Positions 33,394-54,208 of a DNA stretch of 64,000 bases are shown here, in pieces. Positions within the stretch are counted from its first letter, which is position 1. Every line of letters starts with the position of its first letter. The notes beneath the pieces were generated by a model that had not been told where the DNA came from, did not search any database, and saw only the letters and a list, made by a program, of their open reading frames with translations. The stretch comes from Anaerolineae bacterium (GTDB lineage: Bacteria > Chloroflexota > Anaerolineae > Promineifilales > Promineifilaceae), in assembly GCA_020848035.1 (NCBI GenBank), contig JADLAX010000007.1, forward strand, positions 1 to 64,000. Direction: 5' to 3'. A program made the position numbers and the translations under genes.

Positions 33394-33768
33394 ATGCAAG
33401 AAACATCGAGAAACGGTCGTTACCAATTAGACGAGGAAGAGGGGCAGATCACCGTCAATCATGAGGGTCAGCCTGTTTTTCAAGGAAACATTGAGGAACT
33501 GCGCGAACTGGCAATCGTGTTAAACCGTTTTTTGCTGTACGGCGAGAAGGTAGGGGAGGGGAAGCCCGCAGCCTGGTTATCAACCGGCGATGCGCTGGCG
33601 CTGAGCCAGCGGTACGGCGGCCCGGGCAAGGATGCGATTCGGTATGCGGCGCGGAACGGCCGTTTCGTAGCTGAGAAAGATGCATCTGAGAGATGGCGCT
33701 ATGAGAGGGCCAGCTTTATGCGGTGGCTGCTGGATGACGCAGCTCACCAACCAGGCAGGAAGGAATAA
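33394..33768 (+). CDS. Possible HTH regulator
   Basis: 124 residues from the ATG at 33394, preceded by AAAGGAAC. The N-terminal half is acidic. The C-terminal half (STGDALALSQRYGGPGKDAIRYAARNGRF, RYERASFMRWL) resembles an excisionase/MerR-type helix-turn-helix that reads as an insert-and-recognise motif. It could be a small DNA-binding regulator. Confidence 0.5.
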   Translation: MQETSRNGRYQLDEEEGQITVNHEGQPVFQGNIEELRELAIVLNRFLLYGEKVGEGKPAAWLSTGDALALSQRYGGPGKDAIRYAARNGRFVAEKDASERWRYERASFMRWLLDDAAHQPGRKE

Positions 33769-39697: not shown

Positions 39698-40590
39698 AAA
39701 CCAAAAAACTTGACCCACGAGACCTGGCCCGCTGTGCCCTCACCAGCCTACGGCTAGCACGAATCCATCAGAATTTCTTCAGCGATGCGCTGCCTGATCT
39801 GAAATGGAAGCCCGTCGATGAAAAAAGCACCGCAAAGGCGGCTTCCAAGATACTTGGACACGTGGGCACTCTGTTTCCTCTTTGGGAAATGTGGGATGAC
39901 GATTACGCAATGGCCGAGGATTTTTCACAGTATATCCCTATCACCGTATTTGGCGTCGACGATGAATATATTTCAGACATGATGGGTAGCCATATATGGC
40001 ATGACCTGGAGGCATATCTATTTGCCTTTGATGGCGGGTTTGGGGGAGGGGAAGAAGAAGAGGCCGGCGAAGAACTCGCTTGCCAGTTTGATATTCGCCA
40101 GCCAGCGCCCATCTGGAAGATTTTCCTCAAGCTGGAAATGATGCTCATCGAAGGTGATGAGCGGCTCCAGCAGTACAGGGTGCAATGGCGCAACATGGCG
40201 CGACGCTTCCGCTATTTGACGGCCAATACGGAGCACCAGTTTCTCGATCGAGACATCGAAACGCAGAGTTACTCTGGTCAGATACCCTGGGAAAAGGAAT
40301 GGATTGATGCCCTGACAGAGCAATGGGCAGAAGCGGAGCCATACCTGGATTCCACATGGGCATTTGTAAATTGGGTGATAGAAAGCCCAGGTAACTTCGA
40401 CCTGGCAATTGCCGTGGTGCGCCTGGTGTGTGACGAAGTGGCTGCTGACGAGCAGATGGCCAATGTCAGCTTGAATGAAGTACACACTGAAGATCACAAA
40501 GACCTCCTGACAATTCAGCAACGTTTGAACGCAATGGAATGGGACGAAAATGACAAACCAGAAAACGAAAAAGAAACCGAAGCTAGTTAG
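39694..40590 (+). CDS. PRTRC-cassette protein of unknown function
   Basis: 298 residues from the ATG at 39694. Helical, acidic, with a Gly/Glu-rich stretch (GGFGGGEEEEAGEE) near the middle and many Trp. By position it could take the place of PRTRC protein F, but I see no diagnostic motif. It overlaps the E2-like gene by 41 bases. Confidence 0.5.
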   Translation: MKTKKLDPRDLARCALTSLRLARIHQNFFSDALPDLKWKPVDEKSTAKAASKILGHVGTLFPLWEMWDDDYAMAEDFSQYIPITVFGVDDEYISDMMGSHIWHDLEAYLFAFDGGFGGGEEEEAGEELACQFDIRQPAPIWKIFLKLEMMLIEGDERLQQYRVQWRNMARRFRYLTANTEHQFLDRDIETQSYSGQIPWEKEWIDALTEQWAEAEPYLDSTWAFVNWVIESPGNFDLAIAVVRLVCDEVAADEQMANVSLNEVHTEDHKDLLTIQQRLNAMEWDENDKPENEKETEAS

Positions 40591-41209
40591 AGGAAAATGG
40601 GCGGCGCGCATCTCTCTCTACCGGGATCACGCATATGTGGAGATGGATCACCCGGAAGGCTTGCTCGAAAAGCAGGTCGCGCTTGATAGCCTGGGTCCGG
40701 TGTTCGCCAATGTCCCCGTGGGGACGGGGCTGCTGCCGCGCAACATTCTGTTTTATGAAAAGCAGAACGGGGAACAGCGCATCGGCATCTACATTGAACC
40801 TGATCGATACACCTTCCGCACGCCAGATCGGGAATACAAGCTGCCTATGCCGGGCTTTGTGTTTGTGGGCCAGGCGCAGCGTTACAGCCTATATGCCGTG
40901 GCTGAGACGGATTGGCCGGGGCAGCGCACCAGGCTGTACTGGCCGCCCATGACCAACATTCAGGATGGTGGGTCTATGTGCACCGGAACGGTGAAGGTGC
41001 CCAGCTGCGCACCGGACACCATTTGGGACGCCTGGGCTGCGCTGATGGGCGCGTATTTCACGCCTCATGCCATTGAGCATCGCAGCAAAAGCCACAAATC
41101 AGTCATTGAGTTCTGGGAGTTCCTGGAAGCGGTGGACGCTTTTCCCTATGACGAGCTAGTGCCGATGGACAAGCCGCGCACGCTGGAAGAGCTGCTCAGA
41201 GGAGTCTAA
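40550..41209 (+). CDS. E2-like PRTRC protein B
   Basis: 219 residues. LLPRNILFYEK, GIYIEPDRYTFR and the GGSMCTGTVKVP motif with Cys144 match PRTRC protein B / prokaryotic E2 family D, in which this Cys is the candidate thioester site. FTPHAIEH is the conserved later motif. It lies next to E1-like, JAB and ubiquitin-like genes. The conjugating activity is a prediction of the family, not shown here. Confidence 0.7.
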   Translation: MTNQKTKKKPKLVRGKWAARISLYRDHAYVEMDHPEGLLEKQVALDSLGPVFANVPVGTGLLPRNILFYEKQNGEQRIGIYIEPDRYTFRTPDREYKLPMPGFVFVGQAQRYSLYAVAETDWPGQRTRLYWPPMTNIQDGGSMCTGTVKVPSCAPDTIWDAWAALMGAYFTPHAIEHRSKSHKSVIEFWEFLEAVDAFPYDELVPMDKPRTLEELLRGV

Positions 41210-41211
41210 CA

Positions 41212-41814
41212 ATGCTCAGTATTCACAACTTACTCCAACACTACATCTACGATGGCACCCTGCCAGAACCAAACCCGCCAGGGTATCAGTACATCATGGC
41301 GGGCAATGGCATCTTCATCCAGGCAGATAGCCCACTGCGACGCGTGGTTGTGCAAATCGCCCGAAAGCAAATTAAAGGGCTGCCAGCGCTTCAGCAGCAG
41401 ATCAGGTTGAAGCACCCCCGGCTAAACGGCCGTACGCTGCCGGTGATCATCGAACACGCCAGACAGCGCCTGGACATCGAGGTGGTTTACCACGTGACAG
41501 CTGACATGCGGATTCGCGCCATCGCCACGGGCACCAAGGCGTCTGTTGAGTTTGAGAATGTGCCTGATGAAGGGGTTATCCTGGAGGCTCATTCGCATAA
41601 CACAATGCCTGCAGGATTTTCCTCAGTAGACAACAAGTATGAACAGCGGTTTCGATTCTATATGGTGGTGGGCAATCTGCACGACCGTCCGCAGGTGGCC
41701 TTCCGGCTGGGGGTGTATGGGTATCACATCCCGCTACCGCTATCGGTTTTGTTTGACTTTAGCAACGTAAACATTGAATGGGACGAGGTGGGTCATGCTC
41801 AAGATAGATATTGA
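41212..41814 (+). CDS. JAB/JAMM PRTRC protein A
   Basis: 200 residues from the ATG at 41212. Glu125, then H127-S-H129, seven residues, S137-x2-D140: the full JAMM metalloprotease motif (HxH-x7-S-x2-D). JAB proteases of this class remove or mature ubiquitin-like tags. It overlaps the E1-like gene by 20 bases. Confidence 0.8.
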   Translation: MLSIHNLLQHYIYDGTLPEPNPPGYQYIMAGNGIFIQADSPLRRVVVQIARKQIKGLPALQQQIRLKHPRLNGRTLPVIIEHARQRLDIEVVYHVTADMRIRAIATGTKASVEFENVPDEGVILEAHSHNTMPAGFSSVDNKYEQRFRFYMVVGNLHDRPQVAFRLGVYGYHIPLPLSVLFDFSNVNIEWDEVGHAQDRY

Positions 41815-42721
41815 AAAACGATATCGGGTGATGGTTCCCGATTTTCAATTTGTGCAGCTTGTGGTTGCCGGGGTGGGGGGAACTGGCTCAGCCGTAGCCA
41901 TCGATCTGGCACGCCTGGCATATCACTGCCAGGAGAATGGACTACCGGTGATGATGCAGCTGGTTGACGGCGACAAGGTGGAACCAAAAAATGTCGGACG
42001 CCAGCAGTTCTCGATGTACGAGGTCGGTGAAAACAAGGCGACGTCCATGGCGCGGCGGCTGAACCTCTGGCTTGGGCTGGATATAACGGGCACCCCCAAG
42101 ATGCTAACAGAAAAAACGAAACTCATCTTCAACGACGGCCGTATGAAGCCGCTGCGAATCATTGTGGGTGCAGTAGACAACCATAAGGCGCGCCGGGCCA
42201 TTGCCAAACATGCGCAGAAATCTGGCGCATGGTGGGTGGATGCGGGCAACGGCGAATTCAAGGGCCAGGTTCTACTCGGCAATTATCCGCAGGGTGGGAT
42301 TGAGGTAGCCGAGGACCTGGCCCTGATGAACGGGTTACCCGCTCCAGACAAACAGATGCCGGAGCTGCTTGAAGAAGAGGACAAACCAACGCTGGAGTTC
42401 GAGGATTGTGCCTTACGCATCTTACGCGATGAGCAGAGCATCAACATCAATCGGTTGATGGCCACGTATGCGGCGCAGGTGGTTTACGACCTGATCATCA
42501 AGCGGGAGTTGGATTACATGGCGATTCATACCAGCTTCCGGCCGCCCAGCACAACGGCCGTGCCTGTCACCCGCCGCACGCTTGAGCGGTATGGCGAAGT
42601 GAAGGAAGTGCCCGCAAAGTACGACCCCAAGGACATGGACCCAGAGGAGTTTGACGACGAAGAGGATTTTGAACAGTGGTTGCTGGACATGGAAATGGAA
42701 GGCGAGGAGGAGCTGCCGTAA
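41795..42721 (+). CDS. E1/ThiF-like PRTRC protein
   Basis: 308 residues from the ATG at 41795, with GAGGTGGG upstream. The Rossmann motif AGVGGTGSA is at residues ~25-33. LVDGDKVEPKNVGRQQF has the adenylating Asp and the N-x2-RQ motif of ThiF/E1 enzymes. A Cys in FEDCALRIL is a candidate active site. It should adenylate the C-terminus of a ubiquitin-like partner. The end is very acidic. TAATG couples the next gene. Confidence 0.8.
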   Translation: MLKIDIEKRYRVMVPDFQFVQLVVAGVGGTGSAVAIDLARLAYHCQENGLPVMMQLVDGDKVEPKNVGRQQFSMYEVGENKATSMARRLNLWLGLDITGTPKMLTEKTKLIFNDGRMKPLRIIVGAVDNHKARRAIAKHAQKSGAWWVDAGNGEFKGQVLLGNYPQGGIEVAEDLALMNGLPAPDKQMPELLEEEDKPTLEFEDCALRILRDEQSININRLMATYAAQVVYDLIIKRELDYMAIHTSFRPPSTTAVPVTRRTLERYGEVKEVPAKYDPKDMDPEEFDDEEDFEQWLLDMEMEGEEELP

Positions 42722-43116: not shown

Positions 43117-43688
43117 AGTTGGGTCGCTACCGGTTGATCGTCCTGGATCTGGCTTCTGTTTTGCATCGAGACAACGGCCATTTTCACCTGATGCCCTCCG
43201 CGCAAGAGTGGCTGGCACAGCAGCCAATGCGCGCTCCGGATCAGACGCCGTTCATTGCAGTGGTTGAATACCTGCCCATTGCCGTGGGATCCAGGTACAC
43301 GCCGCTTGCATCCAGACTGACACGCCGGTTGCCCATCGATGGAGCCAGGTCGCTGCTCGGCCGGTGGCCGGACCCGGCTGTGCTGCGCCTGTGCCAACGT
43401 CTTTATGGCAACGGCCCCAGCCTGCTTCTGGGCAACTCTCAACTTCATTTTGTGGCGGCCCAGTCAGTTGGCTTTGATTTCTGTTTTGTTCAGGCACTCT
43501 TTTCACCGAGCAAGCAGGTGCAGGCAGGCGACCCCACGGCACGATGGTGCCCGCGCTGTGGGCCGAAGTCTCTGTTAGTGGTCGGTGGTCAAAACGAAGA
43601 CAAGTTGACCTGCTCATCTTGTGGCTACCGTACCGATGCGCCTGAGTCCATCAAATTGTTGAATAGCGGCGCTGCACGGTTGCTATGA
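43107..43688 (+). CDS. Zinc-ribbon hypothetical protein
   Basis: 193 residues from the ATG at 43107; the longer frame upstream overlaps the previous gene and is rejected. The C-terminus has a zinc ribbon: CPRCG...CSSCGYRTD. The N-terminus (YRLIVLDLASVLHRDNG) is HAD-like at most. Function unknown. Confidence 0.55.
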   Translation: MSIELGRYRLIVLDLASVLHRDNGHFHLMPSAQEWLAQQPMRAPDQTPFIAVVEYLPIAVGSRYTPLASRLTRRLPIDGARSLLGRWPDPAVLRLCQRLYGNGPSLLLGNSQLHFVAAQSVGFDFCFVQALFSPSKQVQAGDPTARWCPRCGPKSLLVVGGQNEDKLTCSSCGYRTDAPESIKLLNSGAARLL

Positions 43689-43707
43689 AACCGTTTGAAA
43701 CTATAAT
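43680..43707 (+). promoter_or_regulatory. Promoter of the prenyl synthase with a tandem box
   Basis: TTGCTA (43680) and a perfect TATAAT (43702) are 16 bases apart. TGAAAC at 43686 and 43696 (reverse-strand GTTTCA, 10 bp apart) fill the spacer. The regulator of the boxes could thus control its own signalling cassette. Confidence 0.75.
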
Positions 43708-43733
43708 TTGGGAAACCTTGGGAGAGGTGCTTT

Positions 43734-44672
43734 ATGCATATAGAGAAAACCCGTTTGTGTGGTGAATCGGCAATGGCCAATTATGATTGGCCGTTACTGC
43801 GGCGATTGTGGGAAGAGGCGACCAGTAAGCCGCGCCCCAGCTGGTACTTGCCGGAGCTGGTGACCATGTGCTTTGTGGACCAGTGCGACGAGGAAGTGTC
43901 GGCCAAGTTGGCCGCAGCGCTGGGGATGGCTCAATTGGCAATCAAGTTAATCGACGACTTGCTTGATGCTGAGCCAGGTGGGGTACAGGAACAGGCCAGC
44001 GCTGGGGAGGTGGCCAACATTGCCTGTGCCTTTCAGGCTTTTTCTTCCGACCTGGCGCTTACGTCGTTTCATCCAAATACACCTTTTGGTAAGCCTGCTG
44101 CAGCTATCATTGCCCGGCTACTGCATGAGACGGCCTTTGGCCAAAAGCTAGACTCATCTGAGGCGTTTACAGAGGAAGAATATTGGGTGACCGTGCAGTG
44201 GAAATCTACGCCATTCTACAGGCACGCTTTTGCCTTGGGCGCGCTGCTGGCGCGGCATCATGGGGCCACTGTCGATGTGCAGTTGATTCGGTCACTGGGG
44301 ACGATTTTTGGCGAGATGGTGCAGGTGATTGACGACATGGTGGATGTAATGGCTACACCGGCGACCGGCGATTGGCATCGCAGCAACAATCTACTCATTC
44401 TGTTTGCAGAATTGACCGATGAGCACGGCCGTTTCGCAGAGCTAAAAACGGCAGTTCAGGGCGGTGCCGACCCCGAAACAGCCCAGCAGTATTTAATCGA
44501 CTGTGGGGCAGTGACTTACTGTGAGCACGTTGTGAAGGGGAAGTATGAAAGGGCGATGGAGCTTCTGGCTATTTTGAAGATTGAAGATAGTCCGTTGCGG
44601 AAATTATTTGACAGCCACTTGAGCGCCGTCTTAGTACCAACCAAAGGGCCAGACAGCATTCGCCTCGTTTAA
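43734..44672 (+). CDS. Polyprenyl synthase, ComQ-like
   Basis: 312 residues from the ATG at 43734 after GGGAGAGG. The all-helical isoprenoid synthase fold has both aspartate-rich motifs: IDDLLDAEPG (D74, D75, D78) and VIDDMVDVM (D200, D201, D204). In ComQXPA systems such a protein prenylates a Trp of the ComX peptide. Here a candidate peptide gene overlaps its 3' end on the other strand, and a kinase and regulator follow. A housekeeping prenyl-chain role is less likely in a phage. Confidence 0.75.
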   Translation: MHIEKTRLCGESAMANYDWPLLRRLWEEATSKPRPSWYLPELVTMCFVDQCDEEVSAKLAAALGMAQLAIKLIDDLLDAEPGGVQEQASAGEVANIACAFQAFSSDLALTSFHPNTPFGKPAAAIIARLLHETAFGQKLDSSEAFTEEEYWVTVQWKSTPFYRHAFALGALLARHHGATVDVQLIRSLGTIFGEMVQVIDDMVDVMATPATGDWHRSNNLLILFAELTDEHGRFAELKTAVQGGADPETAQQYLIDCGAVTYCEHVVKGKYERAMELLAILKIEDSPLRKLFDSHLSAVLVPTKGPDSIRLV

Positions 44673-44759
44673 CTGGGCACGAAGTTCTGCAACGGTTAAC
44701 CTTGGTTTTTCAGGCTTACTTTTGGCGAAATCAGTAATCGACAAGATGTTGCTATTCAC
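44631..44759 (-). CDS. Candidate prenylated pheromone precursor (ComX-like)
   Basis: A 42-codon minus-strand gene: GTG at 44759, TAA ending at 44631. GAGAGG lies 7 bases before the GTG, and an extended -10 box TGCTATAAT lies on the minus strand at 44823-44815. The peptide starts NSNILSITDFAKS, is basic and helical in the middle, and ends AVWPFGWY. ComX precursors are ~50 residues with the modified Trp near the C-terminus, so W37 or W41 would be the site. The gene is antisense to the last ~40 bases of the ComQ-like gene, and divergent from the kinase. I could find no other peptide candidate between them. Export and processing are inferred. Confidence 0.6.
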   Translation of the reverse strand: MNSNILSITDFAKSKPEKPRLTVAELRAQLNEANAVWPFGWY

Positions 44760-44769
44760 TGTTTACCTC

Positions 44770-44795
44770 TCTGAGCTACGAATCTAAGCTACGAA
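44770..44795. promoter_or_regulatory. Tandem 13-bp repeat between peptide and kinase genes
   Basis: TCTGAGCTACGAA (44770) and TCTAAGCTACGAA (44783) are adjacent direct repeats. They sit in the leader of the minus-strand peptide gene and just before the kinase start, a good place for a shared operator. Confidence 0.6.
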
Positions 44796-44804
44796 CTGGA
44801 TAGA

Positions 44805-47114
44805 ATGATGCTGCATTATAGCATAAGACGCCTTTTAATTGCCTTAGTCCTTTTGTCTTTTGTGGTTGCCGCCTATTTTTCGGCGCGCTACATCATTACG
44901 CCAGCGGTTATGATGACCGCCACGGACAAGGGGTTGGTGATTTACGATCAGCCCGAGTGTGATGTGTGCAGCCTTGAAATAGGCGATATCGTGGTGGCAA
45001 TTGAGGGGGTAGAATATGAGCCGGGTGTTTTTCTGGCTCCATTTGCGGGCTTTACAAATGGTGACGTGGTGAACATGTCGGTGCTGCGGGGCGGGGAGCG
45101 GGTGGAGGCGCAGCTGCGCATCCCTGCGTCTGACGGGTCTGAGGTGTTTGTAAAGCTGCTGGTCTTTGTATTCTGGATGCCGTTTTGGCTGAGCGCTGCC
45201 TGGCTGGCGTATTTTGCGCCGTTGGACAAGCGGGCCATTACGATGGCGGCTATGTTTTCGGTGTATGCCGTCTGGGTGGTGGCCGGGCTGGTGTCGTCGG
45301 CGTTTGTGTCGGCCGCTTCGGTAGTAGTGCACGTGGCTACCTGGATGCTGGTGCCACTGACGGTACAGGTGCATTGGGTATCGCCCAGCCCACTGCACTG
45401 GCGGGTGCCTCGATGGACGGCCGTGGGTTTCTACGGGGTGTTTGCTGTGCTGGTAGTAGCGGAGCTGTTTCAGATGGTGCCTCGCCAGCTGTTCAGCATT
45501 GGCACGGTTTTGATGGTGCTGGCTCCATTTGTGCTGCTGCCACTACACCGGGATAAGGCGCGCCTGAACGCACGCCGCATGATGTTGATGGGGGTGGTTA
45601 CATTGACGGTGCCCCTGGTTGCCTGGCTGCTGATTTCTTTCAATACAGAAACCAGCAGCAGCGCCTCGTCGGTAAATCTGATGCTGGTGGGGGGGTCGGC
45701 GCTGCTGGCGCTGCCGGTGTTTCCGCTGCTTTACGTATATGCCAATTACCGCCAGTATTTTTCGGCCAAAATGGAGCAGCGGTCATGGCGGGTGTTGGTG
45801 TTGTTGGTTTATATCTCCCTAATTCTGGTGGCGATTACAGCGGCAATCACCGTGGCCGGGCGGTCGCTGTCTATAAACGATCAGGCGATCAACTTGAGCC
45901 TGATTACCTCGACGATTATTGGGGTGGCCGTGGCGCTGGGAACAAACAGTGCGCAGAGCTGGATGAAGCGCTTTACCTACGGCGATTTTGAATCGCGCAT
46001 TAACCTGGCTTCGGTTCGTTTTTCGACGCAGATGACGGAGCTGACGGCTCCGGGCGACTTGGAAGCATTTCTGGCAGCCGAAACGCATGCCCAGCTGGGC
46101 GTGACAGCCTCGGCGCTGTACCTGGCCAGCCCAGAGCTGGTGTTGAAATATGTGGTGGGCGCGGCAGAGGGCGCGACAAAAGCCCCAGAGACGATCAGTC
46201 CTAATAACGACATTGTGGCGGGGTTGGGGAAGTATCGGCCGTATGTGGCGGGCAGCAGCCTGCCCTGGGCCAGGCTGTGCGTTCCTCTGTTGGTAGAGAA
46301 AGACCTGGTGGGGGTATGGTTATTGGGGCCACGGGAGAACGATGATTTTTATGCAGCCGGGCACATCCAGCAGCTGCAAGCGCTGGGCAACCAGGTAGCA
46401 GCGGTGGTGGAAATGCGGCGGCAGCAGCGCGAGATTGAGCGGCAGGTGGCCACGTTACTGGTGAAGGAAAAGGAGGCGGCGTTGGGGCGGGTAGTCACCT
46501 CTGTGGCCCACCAGTTCCGCAATCCGCTGCAAGTTATTATGGGGGCGCTGGAAGCGGACAATGATTACCAAAAGCCGGAAAACGAGTGGCTGGCATTGGC
46601 CTACCAGCGGGCGGAGCGGCTGTCTGACGTAGTTCGTTCTATTCAACGGTTTGCCACGATTAATGACCCAGGAAACGAAGCGGCGCAGCGGATTGATGTG
46701 CAGGAGGCGGTTAAAGAGGCGATGCTGCTCATTGAGCACCGGTTGAAAGAACAGGGGATTACGCTAGCTCTGGAAGATGGCGAACCGTGTTTTGTGATGA
46801 TGGGGGCGTCTGAGCTGACGCAGGCAGTTCTGAACTTGTTGGAGAATGCCAGCGACGCACAAGAAGGGGGCTGCATCCATATTGAGGTGAGCCAACGCAA
46901 TGGCACTGTTGTGCTGCGGGTGCGCGATGAGGGAGCGGGGATTGCTGACGGTGACATTGAGCGGGTATTTGAGCCGTTGTTCACGACAAAAAACGGGCTC
47001 GGTTTGGGATTGTGGATTACGCGTAGTATTATTGAACGAAATCGCGGGACAATAAGCGCCCAGAGTGCTTTGGGGAAAGGTTCTATTTTTACAATAACAC
47101 TCCCAGCAGTGTAA
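44805..47114 (+). CDS. Membrane histidine kinase, ComP-like
   Basis: 769 residues. Signal-anchor helix, then an outer PDZ-like loop (residues ~40-105, LEIGDIVVAIEGVEYEPG), then eight or so membrane helices to residue ~390. A GAF-like region (residues ~395-540) leads to HisKA (VAHQFRNPLQV, phospho-His569) and HATPase_c (NLLENASDA, RDEGAGIADG, NGLGLGLWI). The sensor half matches the layout of Bacillus ComP (PDZ-like loop plus multiple helices), although the kinase core is HisKA rather than HisKA_3. Only GGA precedes the ATGATG start. Confidence 0.75.
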   Translation: MMLHYSIRRLLIALVLLSFVVAAYFSARYIITPAVMMTATDKGLVIYDQPECDVCSLEIGDIVVAIEGVEYEPGVFLAPFAGFTNGDVVNMSVLRGGERVEAQLRIPASDGSEVFVKLLVFVFWMPFWLSAAWLAYFAPLDKRAITMAAMFSVYAVWVVAGLVSSAFVSAASVVVHVATWMLVPLTVQVHWVSPSPLHWRVPRWTAVGFYGVFAVLVVAELFQMVPRQLFSIGTVLMVLAPFVLLPLHRDKARLNARRMMLMGVVTLTVPLVAWLLISFNTETSSSASSVNLMLVGGSALLALPVFPLLYVYANYRQYFSAKMEQRSWRVLVLLVYISLILVAITAAITVAGRSLSINDQAINLSLITSTIIGVAVALGTNSAQSWMKRFTYGDFESRINLASVRFSTQMTELTAPGDLEAFLAAETHAQLGVTASALYLASPELVLKYVVGAAEGATKAPETISPNNDIVAGLGKYRPYVAGSSLPWARLCVPLLVEKDLVGVWLLGPRENDDFYAAGHIQQLQALGNQVAAVVEMRRQQREIERQVATLLVKEKEAALGRVVTSVAHQFRNPLQVIMGALEADNDYQKPENEWLALAYQRAERLSDVVRSIQRFATINDPGNEAAQRIDVQEAVKEAMLLIEHRLKEQGITLALEDGEPCFVMMGASELTQAVLNLLENASDAQEGGCIHIEVSQRNGTVVLRVRDEGAGIADGDIERVFEPLFTTKNGLGLGLWITRSIIERNRGTISAQSALGKGSIFTITLPAV

Positions 47115-47125
47115 GAGAGGTTCCG

Positions 47126-47857
47126 ATGGCCCACATTTTGGTGGTTGATGATGAGGACGATATTTGCCGCCTTATCCGGGATGCCTTTTATAGAAAAGGG
47201 CATGACGTGGATGTGGCGCACAATGGGCGGCAGGCTCTGGAATTGCTGCGACAATCCTTTTATGATGCGATGATACTTGACCTGGTGATGCCCGGCATGA
47301 CCGGCGAGCAGGTTTTGGATCATCGTGAGGAGTATGCGGAAACGGCCGTTATCATTTTGACGGCGCACAGTTCGACCAGCTCAGCAGTGAAGGCGCTGCG
47401 CACACAGGTGTCTGATTACTTGGAGAAGCCGGTTGAGCTGGCTCGGCTGGTGGAGATGGTGGAATCTTATATTGTTTGGCACAGCTACAAGGATTTCAAA
47501 GTCAATATTCAGTCACAGCGCGCCTTCTATAAGGGCGAGCTCATCGAAGGGATGACGGCAGGGCTGTTTTACATTTTTTCGATTTTTGTGAAATATCCCG
47601 GCCGGTACTTTACGCATCAGGAGCTGGTGACGCAGATGGTGAAAGAGTACCCGGATTATTTTGAAAGCGACACCAGGGCTTACATAGCCAAAAAGGTTAA
47701 TGCCGTTGGGGGAATTGACCGAATAACCGCCACACGCTACCTACGCCCGCAGATATCGCGATTGCGGCGGAAGGTGCTGGACCCGTTGGTGGGGCGCGAG
47801 GTGATTACGGATCAGAAGGGGGTGGGGTTTACGTGGGGCCGTTTTGATCTTGTGTAA
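47126..47857 (+). CDS. OmpR-type response regulator
   Basis: 243 residues, 11 bases after the kinase gene, with GAGAGG upstream. The receiver has DDEDD near residues 8-12, phospho-Asp52 (MILDLVMPG), Thr/Ser in ILTAHSS and Lys in LEKPVE. The C-terminal ~100 residues form a winged helix (FTHQELVTQMVKE, RYLRPQISRLRRKVLDP, ITDQKGVGFTW). OmpR-family regulators bind tandem direct half-sites 10-11 bp apart, so it is the best candidate for the GTTKCA arrays. Confidence 0.85.
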   Translation: MAHILVVDDEDDICRLIRDAFYRKGHDVDVAHNGRQALELLRQSFYDAMILDLVMPGMTGEQVLDHREEYAETAVIILTAHSSTSSAVKALRTQVSDYLEKPVELARLVEMVESYIVWHSYKDFKVNIQSQRAFYKGELIEGMTAGLFYIFSIFVKYPGRYFTHQELVTQMVKEYPDYFESDTRAYIAKKVNAVGGIDRITATRYLRPQISRLRRKVLDPLVGREVITDQKGVGFTWGRFDLV

Positions 47858-47906
47858 AAATTGAGGATTTGTTATAGTGGAGGCCTGCTGGTTGCAGTAG
47901 GTTTCA
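47850..47906 (+). promoter_or_regulatory. Promoter and tandem box before the replication gene
   Basis: TTGTGT (47850) and TATAGT (47873), 17 bases apart, then GTTGCA (47891) and GTTTCA (47901), 10 bp apart. CTATACA follows at 47911. Confidence 0.65.
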
Positions 47907-47921
47907 AAATCTATACAAGGC

Positions 47922-48019
47922 AAAAAAAAGCCCGGTGCTTTGGCGAGCATACCGGGCGGGCGCCACAGAGTGGCAGTGGATTCAGCCGCATTATATCATA
48001 TTCCCCTGTGACGCCACAA
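47922..48019 (-). ncRNA. Candidate minus-strand antisense RNA
   Basis: On the minus strand, TTGTGG (48019-48014) and TATAAT (47995-47990) are 18 bases apart, predicting a start near 47983. The RNA ends at a strong terminator: GCCCGGT..GCT paired with AGCACCGGGC, then T8 (47929-47922). It is about 62 nt and antisense to the leader of the replication gene, the arrangement of plasmid copy-control RNAs. Confidence 0.6.
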
Positions 48020-48093
48020 GCCTATATTTTTTATGGATCACCTGTTCTAGGTGATGTGGTGAAACATACGTGGGGATGGTAGAATTGGGCAAC

Positions 48094-48261: not shown

Positions 48262-49473
48262 ATGGCAGCAGCGGTCAAGAGTTCGGCAGAAACAACCTGG
48301 AGAGCGACCCTCAGCGAGCTTGAGTTGCAGATGACGAAGGCCACATTTAACACGTGGCTGAAAGATGCGGTGTTTTTGCGGGTCGAAAAGGGCGTCTACG
48401 TGATTGGCGTACGGAACAGCCATGCAGTTGACTGGCTCACAAATCGGCTGGGGGACACGATCCGGCGCACATTGGCAGCGATTGCTGATACGGCCGTTGA
48501 TGTGCGTTTTGTGGTGGTGGACGTAGTTGAGAGTGAGCTGGCCCAGGACGACGAGGGTGAAGATGGGGAACGGCCGTTTTACTCGCGGCCTGACATCAAC
48601 GCCCAATGGTATGCTGTGCTAAAGGCGTATGCGGAAGCCCAAGACAGTTTGCAGCCATCATCCTGCCTGAAGCTGCTGAATAAATTGGATTTTTTGATTG
48701 ACGGTACAAACCTCAAGATTTTTTCTTCTGACCCCAAAGCTATTGAAAATTTGAATAGAATCGCCAACTGGCTGGAGGCCCTGCAAGCGCAGTTTCGTGT
48801 GGCGGGCCTGCTGGTGGATGTGTCATTGCACCAGGAGCCGAGCAGTAATGGCCGTGCCAATGGGCAAGCTAGCCAGGCTAGCCAGAAGCAGCAAACCAAG
48901 CGCAAGGGCAGCGATGACGGGGATGGACCGGTGCAGTATAGGAACATTCGGCCCCCAACGGATCCGCTGGGGTCTTTTGTGAAAACCAGCCATTATGCCA
49001 TTCGGTTCTGGCGGCCGTACCTGGGGCCAGATGTGTTTGATTTGCTGCAAATCATTAGCAGTTATGCTTATGAATTTGAGGTGTTACGCAAGGATGGGCC
49101 AACCCTGACAGCCCTCATTAACAAGATGGGGCGGGGGAAGGACACCAGGAAGCTCACCGGCAGAACAGGCAGCGGCAAGGGCGATAGCTACCGCGAGGGG
49201 TCTTATGGTTGGCTGAACGAGCTGCGGGATCATCGGCTGTGCGACTATTGGCAAGATGGGTACGGCCGTTGGGCTAAGAATTATTTCGACCACTTGACCA
49301 AAGTGAGCGACCTCCCACTACTAACCCCCAAACAGGTAGCACGATTATCCCCTGAAGACCAGGCAGAACACGAGGAATGGCTCCGGCTGCATACGGCCGT
49401 TGATTACGACGAATGGAGCCAGGACGGGCGTGAATCACGCATTCCAGAATTGCCTTTGCGAGAACACCCCTAA
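48262..49473 (+). CDS. Replication initiator with a DnaA_N domain
   Basis: 403 residues with GAGGAT upstream. Residues ~10-90 fit DnaA domain I (TWRATLSELELQMTKATFNT, VRNSHAVDWLTNRLGDTI). A flexible linker leads to a C-terminal half with many aromatic residues (SHYAIRFWRPYLGPDVFDLL) and an RTGSGKGDSYREGSYGW loop. There is no AAA+ domain, so it is not DnaA; the N-terminal domain could recruit host DnaB or DnaA partners. Iterons begin 23 bases after the stop codon. I take it as the plasmid-type initiator. Confidence 0.7.
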   Translation: MAAAVKSSAETTWRATLSELELQMTKATFNTWLKDAVFLRVEKGVYVIGVRNSHAVDWLTNRLGDTIRRTLAAIADTAVDVRFVVVDVVESELAQDDEGEDGERPFYSRPDINAQWYAVLKAYAEAQDSLQPSSCLKLLNKLDFLIDGTNLKIFSSDPKAIENLNRIANWLEALQAQFRVAGLLVDVSLHQEPSSNGRANGQASQASQKQQTKRKGSDDGDGPVQYRNIRPPTDPLGSFVKTSHYAIRFWRPYLGPDVFDLLQIISSYAYEFEVLRKDGPTLTALINKMGRGKDTRKLTGRTGSGKGDSYREGSYGWLNELRDHRLCDYWQDGYGRWAKNYFDHLTKVSDLPLLTPKQVARLSPEDQAEHEEWLRLHTAVDYDEWSQDGRESRIPELPLREHP

Positions 49474-53068: not shown

Positions 53069-54208
53069 ATGAAATTTAGTACGAATCGCGAATCCCTGAT
53101 TGATGTTTTGAAGAAGTTACGGCCGTTTGTGTCCACGCGCAGCCTGCTGCCTGTTTTGCAGAATGTGCGGGTGGAAGCATTTGAAGACGGCCGGGTGAAT
53201 CTGACGGTCACCAACCTGGAAGTGATAGGGGCCGCAATGGCTGGTGCAACGGTGGACGCACCTGGGGCCACCACGCTGCCTTACACGCTCCTGGTGAGCG
53301 TGCTGGGCGAAATGATGGGGGAGCAGGTGTCGTTTTCGCCTGACGAGGGTGAGCGCACCCTGATCCAGTCTGATTTGTCTGAAAGCTCTCTGGCGGGCCT
53401 TCCCGCAGCGGAGTTCCCCAAGACGGATTTCGTGATTACCGACGCTTCATTTTCCTTCCCTGTGACGGCGGCATGGCTGAAGCAGCGCTTCAACCAGGTT
53501 CTGTTTAGTGCGGCCGGTGACGATACGCGACCGGTTCTGTGTACGGTGCTGTTCCGGGTGGTTGGTGGCAAGTTAACAATGGCGGCTACCGATGGATTCC
53601 GCCTTACGCTGATTGATGCCCCAGAAGCCTTTGGTGAAACGGCCGTTCCCAACTTTGAAGTGATCTTCCCCGCAGCGCAAATGGCGGGAATCTTGCAGAT
53701 GCTCGAAGGCGATGTAACGGTAACCGTTAACTGCAAGCGGGTGAAGTTTGAGACGGCGACGGCCACGGCCGTGCTGCAAGTGCCTGACTATGACTACCCT
53801 GATTTCAGCCCCATCATTCCAACGCGTGTGCTGACCATGTTTACTTTGGAGCGTGCGCGGGCCATCAGTGCGGCGCGGTTGGCGATGGTGATTGCTCATC
53901 ACAACGACGGTCCCGAGGCGATCACGCTGGAGCATGAGCCGGTGGATGGGGAGGCGGGGTGGTTGGCCATGTCTTCGGTGATTGCGTCGGTGGGGGCAAA
54001 CGAGGCCCGCGCCACGCTCATTTCGGCTGAGGGCAACCAGTTTTCAACGATGGGGGTGAATGGGGGGTATCTGCTGGATGCGCTAACTCATGCGCCTGAT
54101 GGTGATATCCAAATCCGTACCACCAATCCGGTAGAGCCAATTGTTATTCGGTCGGTTAATGATGCGACGTGGCAGTGCATCATTATGCCGCTCCATTTGA
54201 AACGTTAG
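53069..54208 (+). CDS. dnaN: DNA polymerase III beta subunit (sliding clamp)
   Basis: 379 residues, the normal length. Start MKFSTNRESLIDVLKKLRPF; middle LCTVLFRVVGGKLTMAATDG; end WQCIIMPLHLKR, all clamp hallmarks. It should encircle DNA and raise the processivity of a polymerase encoded by the host or outside the window. GGAGG precedes the ATG, and a very strong terminator follows. Confidence 0.9.
   Translation: MKFSTNRESLIDVLKKLRPFVSTRSLLPVLQNVRVEAFEDGRVNLTVTNLEVIGAAMAGATVDAPGATTLPYTLLVSVLGEMMGEQVSFSPDEGERTLIQSDLSESSLAGLPAAEFPKTDFVITDASFSFPVTAAWLKQRFNQVLFSAAGDDTRPVLCTVLFRVVGGKLTMAATDGFRLTLIDAPEAFGETAVPNFEVIFPAAQMAGILQMLEGDVTVTVNCKRVKFETATATAVLQVPDYDYPDFSPIIPTRVLTMFTLERARAISAARLAMVIAHHNDGPEAITLEHEPVDGEAGWLAMSSVIASVGANEARATLISAEGNQFSTMGVNGGYLLDALTHAPDGDIQIRTTNPVEPIVIRSVNDATWQCIIMPLHLKR

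Follow-up and report, generated by a model that had tools for sequence, protein, structure and literature searches.

A comQXPA-like gene set occupies positions 43734-47857 of the window (the whole 64-kb stretch of DNA that was analysed), with a synthase (Q), a sensor kinase (P) and a response regulator (A) all on the plus strand, and this cassette probably represents a working ComQXPA-like autoinducing peptide system resident on a circular phage-plasmid. An earlier note had described the cassette as consisting of these three genes; the peptide gene that was overlooked can now be supplied as a candidate, X, on the minus strand (Table 1). Most of the X ORF lies within the 132-nt gap that separates Q from P, with the ends of X and Q overlapping by 42 nt on opposite strands, and A begins 11 nt 3' of P.

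Table 1. Coordinates of the cassette features within the window
Feature	Position	Strand	Basis
Sigma-70-like promoter TTGCTA-16-TATAAT, predicted, 5' of Q	43680..43707	+	Consensus scan, 10/12
Q, ComQ-like Trp-prenyltransferase candidate, polyprenyl synthase fold	43734..44672	+	PF00348, family HMM, motifs, model
X, candidate pheromone precursor, 42 aa	44631..44759	-	SD AGAGAGG, GTG start, C-terminal Trp
Tandem direct repeat, candidate response-regulator operator between divergent X and P	44770..44795	.	Repeat search
P, ComP-like sensor histidine kinase, 769 aa	44805..47114	+	Pfam, sensor HMM, model
A, response regulator, 243 aa	47126..47857	+	REC plus divergent OmpR-type winged helix

The Q product is 312 aa in length, its gene is preceded by the SD sequence GGGAGAGG, and it matches PF00348 at 39.7 bits (Pfam cut-off 27). 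Both Asp-rich motifs that had been claimed for the synthase are present (DDLLD and QVIDDMVD), but the pair is no pointer to ComQ, as the ComQ of Bacillus subtilis is itself without a canonical second motif (PMC10853753). Rather, the telling signs of ComQ likeness appear to be the missing IPP-binding motifs, together with the identity of the partner genes. In chain-elongating trans-prenyl synthases, IPP is bound by a GKRxRP motif and by the RR that follows the first Asp-rich motif (FARM). Q has neither of these, and the same pattern extends across the family to which it belongs, where GKRxRP is found in none of the 86 members and the RR after FARM is missing in 82 of them; this RR is found in three of the four Q paralogs of the same genome. 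The QxxDDxxD motif is retained in Q, as is the Gln before the second Asp-rich motif in all 86 family members, a residue that has been linked to Trp recognition in Trp prenyltransferases (PMC13290415).

The phylogenetic position of Q is in keeping with its motifs. Housekeeping synthases form a branch of their own (97/96), and the window Q falls inside the clade of the Q family (91/91), on a long branch and with an identity of at most ~39% to any relative. When scored with a family profile built without the window sequence, Q reaches 235.7 bits, versus 19 bits with a housekeeping profile. A grouping with housekeeping synthases, which the earlier note had named as the outcome that would count against its proposal, was looked for and did not appear, and the missing motifs, tree position and profile scores together exclude Q as a housekeeping synthase. 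The predicted structure of Q (pLDDT 93.8) adopts the trans-prenyl synthase fold; a fold search with Q returns this general fold and does not discriminate, and Q weakly matches prenyl diphosphate synthases.

The P kinase contains HisKA (PF00512), HATPase_c and weak GAF domains, and its H-, N- and G-boxes are intact; Pfam finds no HisKA_3 domain (PF07730) in the window P, and several of its relatives carry one. The description of P as a multi-helix kinase of 769 residues with a PDZ-like outer loop, in the layout of ComP, agrees with the model of the sensor half (pLDDT 84.5), in which TM1 is followed by a five-strand loop domain (residues 37-105) and then by about nine helices, for a total of ~10 TM segments. 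The loop domain matches PDZ domains that include those of HtrA, DegS, AlgW and 4fgm, with Foldseek probabilities of 0.99-1.00 but E-values of only ~0.1-0.3. DegS, AlgW and 4fgm are also present in the published match list for the outer loop of ComP, a protein with a PDZ loop between TM1 and TM2 and with ten TM segments (PMC9620489).

Membership of P in a wider sensor family is evident from an HMM built from the sensor halves of 71 relatives, with the window left out, that matches P at 181 bits over residues 12-389 and is without a match in 19 further kinase loci of the genome. In relatives, this sensor half is fused to HisKA_3, to HisKA, to a hybrid HisKA-REC, or to GAF and HD-GYP domains without a kinase, an arrangement suggestive of a receptor module with exchangeable outputs, where the HisKA/OmpR combination of the window would be one of several. 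The earlier view that this pairing marks a separate branch is therefore not upheld. The fusion in which HD-GYP replaces the kinase (L066:6962-9766, with a GAF domain following the pheromone-sensor half) suggests that, in this case, a peptide may directly control c-di-GMP turnover.

Relatives of the window synthase are present in 9 of 400 genomes of the phylum, the genome of the window included, and a family profile yields 26 matches across 298 genomes of the class at E <= 1e-35. In the class scan, the best matches (295-441 bits, own genome included) stand clear of a weaker group that scores <=158 bits, with a paralog of the window's own genome lying between them at 221 bits. A search for the Q family yields 80 loci in named genomes, chiefly from Chloroflexota (Anaerolineae, Caldilineaceae, Ardenticatenaceae and others), with some from Acidobacteriota, Myxococcota and Bacteroidota. 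The ComP-like sensor module, as detected by the sensor profile, adjoins Q in 67 of these 80 loci, the remaining 13 including several that are cut by contig ends; it had been anticipated that the proposal would suffer if homologous kinases were never found beside such synthases, and the opposite is the case. For 39 loci, the kinase and synthase are divergent, in the layout K(-)X(+)Q(+), and a response regulator lies near Q in 38 of the 39, nearly always directly adjoining, creating a K-X-Q-A quartet.

Trp-ended peptides are likewise conserved beside Q in the relatives. Small ORFs of 38-75 codons, with a ribosome site and a Trp among the final 12 residues, are located directly upstream of Q in 60 of 76 testable loci, as compared to 10 of 130 controls, taken from genes in the same contigs (Fisher p 2e-26). 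Among the peptides, two leader families can be recognised, M.MQ.FY..L and (S/T)IE.F..LL.S..., and members of both end in W or W-x-x-W-like motifs. Close peptide pairs differ chiefly at synonymous sites (pN/pS 0.07-0.49), indicating that these ORFs are real genes under purifying selection. On the strength of these comparisons, it is highly probable that the family represents Trp-prenyl-peptide signalling outside of the Firmicutes.

Variations on this arrangement are found in a number of genomes. In a deltaproteobacterial relative (L120), the precursor, encoded from ~280 to 20 nt upstream of Q, is 87 aa long and contains three W-x-x-W units, which may be multiple cores of a single peptide. The Q domain of Plesiocystis pacifica forms the C-terminal part of an 846-aa ORF (L114:5231-7771), the N-terminal part of which has no Pfam match. 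A conserved set consisting of X, Q and an OmpR-type regulator, without a ComP-like kinase, lies near NADH-dehydrogenase-like genes at four loci (L029, L085, L100 and L111), with a peptide that ends in WGW(N/Y)WDW and is under purifying selection. A single contig of 4,044 bp (L074/L046) carries only the X, Q and kinase genes, with a portion of the kinase gene common to both ends, as could result from a small circle or from an assembly loop.

The genome from which the window derives, a MAG-like draft with an estimated contamination of 7.3%, contains PF00348 matches at nine loci, four of which are strong (156.7-225.5 bits) and five divergent (39-60 bits), the window being among the divergent ones. 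Three of the other four divergent loci have a multi-TM kinase directly 3' of the synthase and a short Trp-ended ORF 5' of it, with the peptide ends ...LVDLWIRPTD, ...GRSAWAD and ...GGCWYGGGCSL, and the fourth has a short ORF ending in ...DVWGWNWDW and an OmpR-type regulator. Three chromosomal Q-P sets with distinct Trp-ended peptides (L030, L031 and L032) are present in this genome; by-eye annotation places one of them next to LanM-like genes and one with an ABC transporter, and finds two of them flanked by similar DNA-polymerase-like genes.

The candidate X is the weakest part of the cassette, as no ortholog was found for it and it has no profile match. The product, MNSNILSITDFAKSKPEKPRLTVAELRAQLNEANAVWPFGWY, ends in ...NAVWPFGWY, with Trp37 in the sixth position from the end and Trp41 close behind, and at 42 aa is short relative to the ~45-69 aa of most relatives; the GTG start likewise counts against it. 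HMMs of the related peptide families do not see X (0.9 bits, rank 34), and a profile search of the window for X gave no useful match. By pairwise score against the second leader family (X1), X ranks first among the 306 ORFs of 34-60 aa in the window, and its score was reached by one of 300 shuffles, lending weak support to homology with the leaders of the relatives. In addition, the window contains eight ORFs that combine an SD sequence with a terminal Trp, or ~1 per 8 kb, and the chance expectation for such an ORF in the Q-P gap is ~0.03. No candidate X matches the ComX family of Pfam (PF05952), a search of little power, as B. subtilis itself is also below the cut-off for this family in a genome search. 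Two other ORFs were considered and rejected as X: a 26-codon ORF at 43685-43765 ending in FVW, which is without an SD and overlaps both the start of Q and the Q promoter-like site, and an ORF at 47861-48082 ending in HTWGW, which starts at a TTG codon, is missing the leader-like part and has a low score.

With regard to regulation, the claim that A is an OmpR-type regulator is borne out by a PF00072 (REC) match of 91.9 bits and by a C-terminus that is OmpR-type at a sub-threshold score (PF00486, 23.7 bits, under its cut-off). The 45 nt separating the X ORF from P hold two 13-nt direct repeats, TCT(G/A)AGCTACGAA, a pair that is unique in the 7.65-Mb genome even when 3 mismatches are allowed. 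The earlier note had placed a promoter with a tandem operator ahead of the cassette; the tandem repeat is real, but its position is between X and P, and the synthase has a promoter-like sequence of its own (Table 1). The half-site AGCTACGAA occurs a third time within an ORF (33664-33672), probably by chance, and this copy is not regarded as a further site.

The replicon that carries the cassette is 101,576 bp in size, with identical 127-bp ends, as in a circular assembly. Its virion and integration genes encode a terminase large subunit, a tyrosine recombinase (integrase), a tape measure protein and a minor tail protein, and it also encodes an endolysin-like SLT/M23 protein, ParA, ParB and DnaN (53069-54208). 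The circular ends, terminase, tape measure, ParA/ParB and DnaN all agree with the phage-plasmid setting put forward earlier, and judged by its genes the carrier is a circular phage-plasmid of an uncultured Chloroflexota bacterium. A DnaA N-terminal domain, with the rest of DnaA missing, is encoded at 48262-49473, and the replicon can be tied to the host genome because this domain shares 63% identity with a DnaA-like protein encoded on a separate contig of that genome. Q was unmatched in phage, plasmid and IMG/VR collections; searches with the neighbouring genes of the cassette found no related phage-plasmid. The carrier is apparently rare or previously unseen, because of the lack of matches in these collections. 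Two other features of the phage-plasmid are a second histidine-kinase-like protein with HATPase_c (564-1703) and a row of E2-like, JAB-like and ThiF/E1-like genes at 40550-42721 (PF14460, PF14464 weak, PF00899) that appears to be a ubiquitin-like conjugation set.

From the genes present, the following scheme can be proposed for prenylation, secretion, sensing and operator use. Q would transfer a prenyl group, presumably geranyl or farnesyl, onto a Trp near the C-terminus of X, and the trimmed and modified peptide would leave the cells that carry the element, building up with their density. At a threshold concentration, the peptide would be bound by the sensor half of P, consisting of the PDZ-like outer loop and the membrane helices, altering autophosphorylation at His569, with phosphate then passing from P to A. 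The probable binding site of A is the tandem repeat located between X and P, which are divergent genes, and through it A would tune production of both signal and receptor.

A different function for the same genes would be production of a ribosomal peptide that is prenylated and acts antagonistically, like a bacteriocin, where P and A act as a self-induction or immunity circuit and not as a density sensor. Such a function would fit the nisin-like lantibiotic cluster that adjoins a related set on the Priestia plasmid pBM700, the LanM-like and FAD-linked oxidase-like genes that by-eye annotation finds beside the host paralog L031, and the three W-x-x-W units of the deltaproteobacterial precursor. 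However, maturation, immunity and export genes are all missing beside the window cassette, and the constant partner of the family is the sensor, which is in one case fused to HD-GYP in place of a kinase; an antagonistic role is thus unlikely, and autoinduction by such a peptide would remain a form of peptide signalling.

Slightly less likely again is a reading of the window cassette as a copy that is decaying or cheating, in which the local X is non-functional and the peptide of a chromosomal paralog is sensed or modified by Q, P and A. In favour of this are the four additional Q loci of the genome, all accompanied by a Trp-ended small ORF of their own, as well as the atypical local X and the long branch of the window Q; yet none of Q, P and A is truncated, their motifs are intact, and the local X ORF has a good SD sequence and sits in the expected gap. 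Moreover, the chromosomal X peptides are strongly unlike one another, and therefore suggestive of separate specificities. A role for Q as a small-molecule (lipid or terpenoid) prenyl synthase, with P monitoring the membrane or isoprenoid state and X a chance ORF, would account for the polyprenyl synthase fold, the weak prenyl diphosphate synthase matches and the missing profile match of X, but is very improbable in light of the family-wide absence of the IPP-binding motifs, the purifying selection on Trp-ended peptides enriched beside Q relative to controls, and the separation of Q from housekeeping enzymes in the tree.

If the cassette is an autoinducing peptide system, it may, although this is tentative, serve decisions of the phage such as the sensing of lysogen density. 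A temperate phage-plasmid could conceivably gauge the density of its carriers by means of its own prenylated pheromone, read through a membrane kinase, and adjust lysogeny, copy number or transfer accordingly, a possibility offered with the same reserve. This would amount to a second phage communication chemistry beside arbitrium, borrowed from a large Trp-prenyl-peptide family in Chloroflexota and other phyla, and the phage-plasmid copy makes lipidated-peptide communication by a phage element testable. Beyond the phage-plasmid, the Q-X-sensor unit is consistent across tens of Chloroflexota genomes and a few of Acidobacteriota, with interchangeable outputs and fast-changing peptides, and an almost uncultured phylum would gain a predictable alphabet of signals that is open to synthesis and testing.

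A Trp-prenyl-peptide family in Chloroflexota and some other phyla appears to be unreported so far. A census of 2014, based on 2013 genomes, found comQXPA in Firmicutes only (PMC4008528), a survey of 2022 noted a ComP-ComA-like pair in chloroflexi with the enzyme and peptide unmentioned (PMC8895600), and Chloroflexota go unmentioned in papers of 2023 and 2026 that deal with Trp prenyltransferases (PMC10853753, PMC13290415). In the literature searched there were no comQXPA-like loci from Chloroflexota, although reports beyond its scope are possible. By the criteria of the census, ComQ is of the PF00348 type and ~286-309 aa, ComX is 52-73 aa with a Trp 5-10 aa from the C-terminus and is encoded between comQ and comP, ComP has HisKA_3 (PF07730) and HATPase_c, and ComA has REC and a LuxR/GerE HTH (PMC4008528). 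The window X lies in the equivalent gap and has Trp37, but is 42 aa long and on the opposite strand, an orientation of comX also described in strains of B. cereus and in Lysinibacillus fusiformis (PMC4008528). The window set is not filed as a ComQXPA member because HisKA_3 and a LuxR-type regulator are not found in it.

The window set shares with ComQXPA of Firmicutes an isoprenyl-synthase-type Q of ~310 aa, a multi-TM kinase whose first outer loop is large and PDZ-like, and a response regulator, and it has a short Trp-ended candidate for the precursor, encoded between Q and P. It differs in its phylum and phage-plasmid location, in the second Asp-rich motif kept by Q, in having a transmitter of the HisKA and not the HisKA_3 type and a regulator of the OmpR and not the LuxR/NarL type, and in an X that is unrelated in sequence and only 42 aa long. 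A Firmicutes X-Q-P-A set on a plasmid, that of Priestia megaterium pBM700 (L136, 4310-8149), resembles the window in an X ending in ...GNEWV, a Q that is a PF00348 relative (29.0 bits) and a P with a multi-TM N-terminus, whereas it is of the HisKA_3/NarL type, in the canonical order and strand, and adjoins the lantibiotic cluster. The Priestia Q is a long branch too divergent for placement in the tree, and the Priestia ComP scores 26 bits against the sensor family with a bias about equal.

For the enzyme, the nearest parallels are PalQ and ChrPC, likened here on fold and motif, which also use the isoprenoid-synthase fold for Trp prenylation of RiPPs and have a Gln before the second Asp-rich motif (PMC10853753, PMC13290415). 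PalQ and ChrPC act in peptide natural-product clusters, whereas the constant partner of the Q family is a sensor protein. For the phage, the parallel is the arbitrium system of Bacillus phages, in which an unmodified peptide is imported and bound by a cytoplasmic RRNPP receptor. Both would be phage-carried peptide signals, with the window cassette predicted to rely instead on a prenylated peptide and a membrane kinase.
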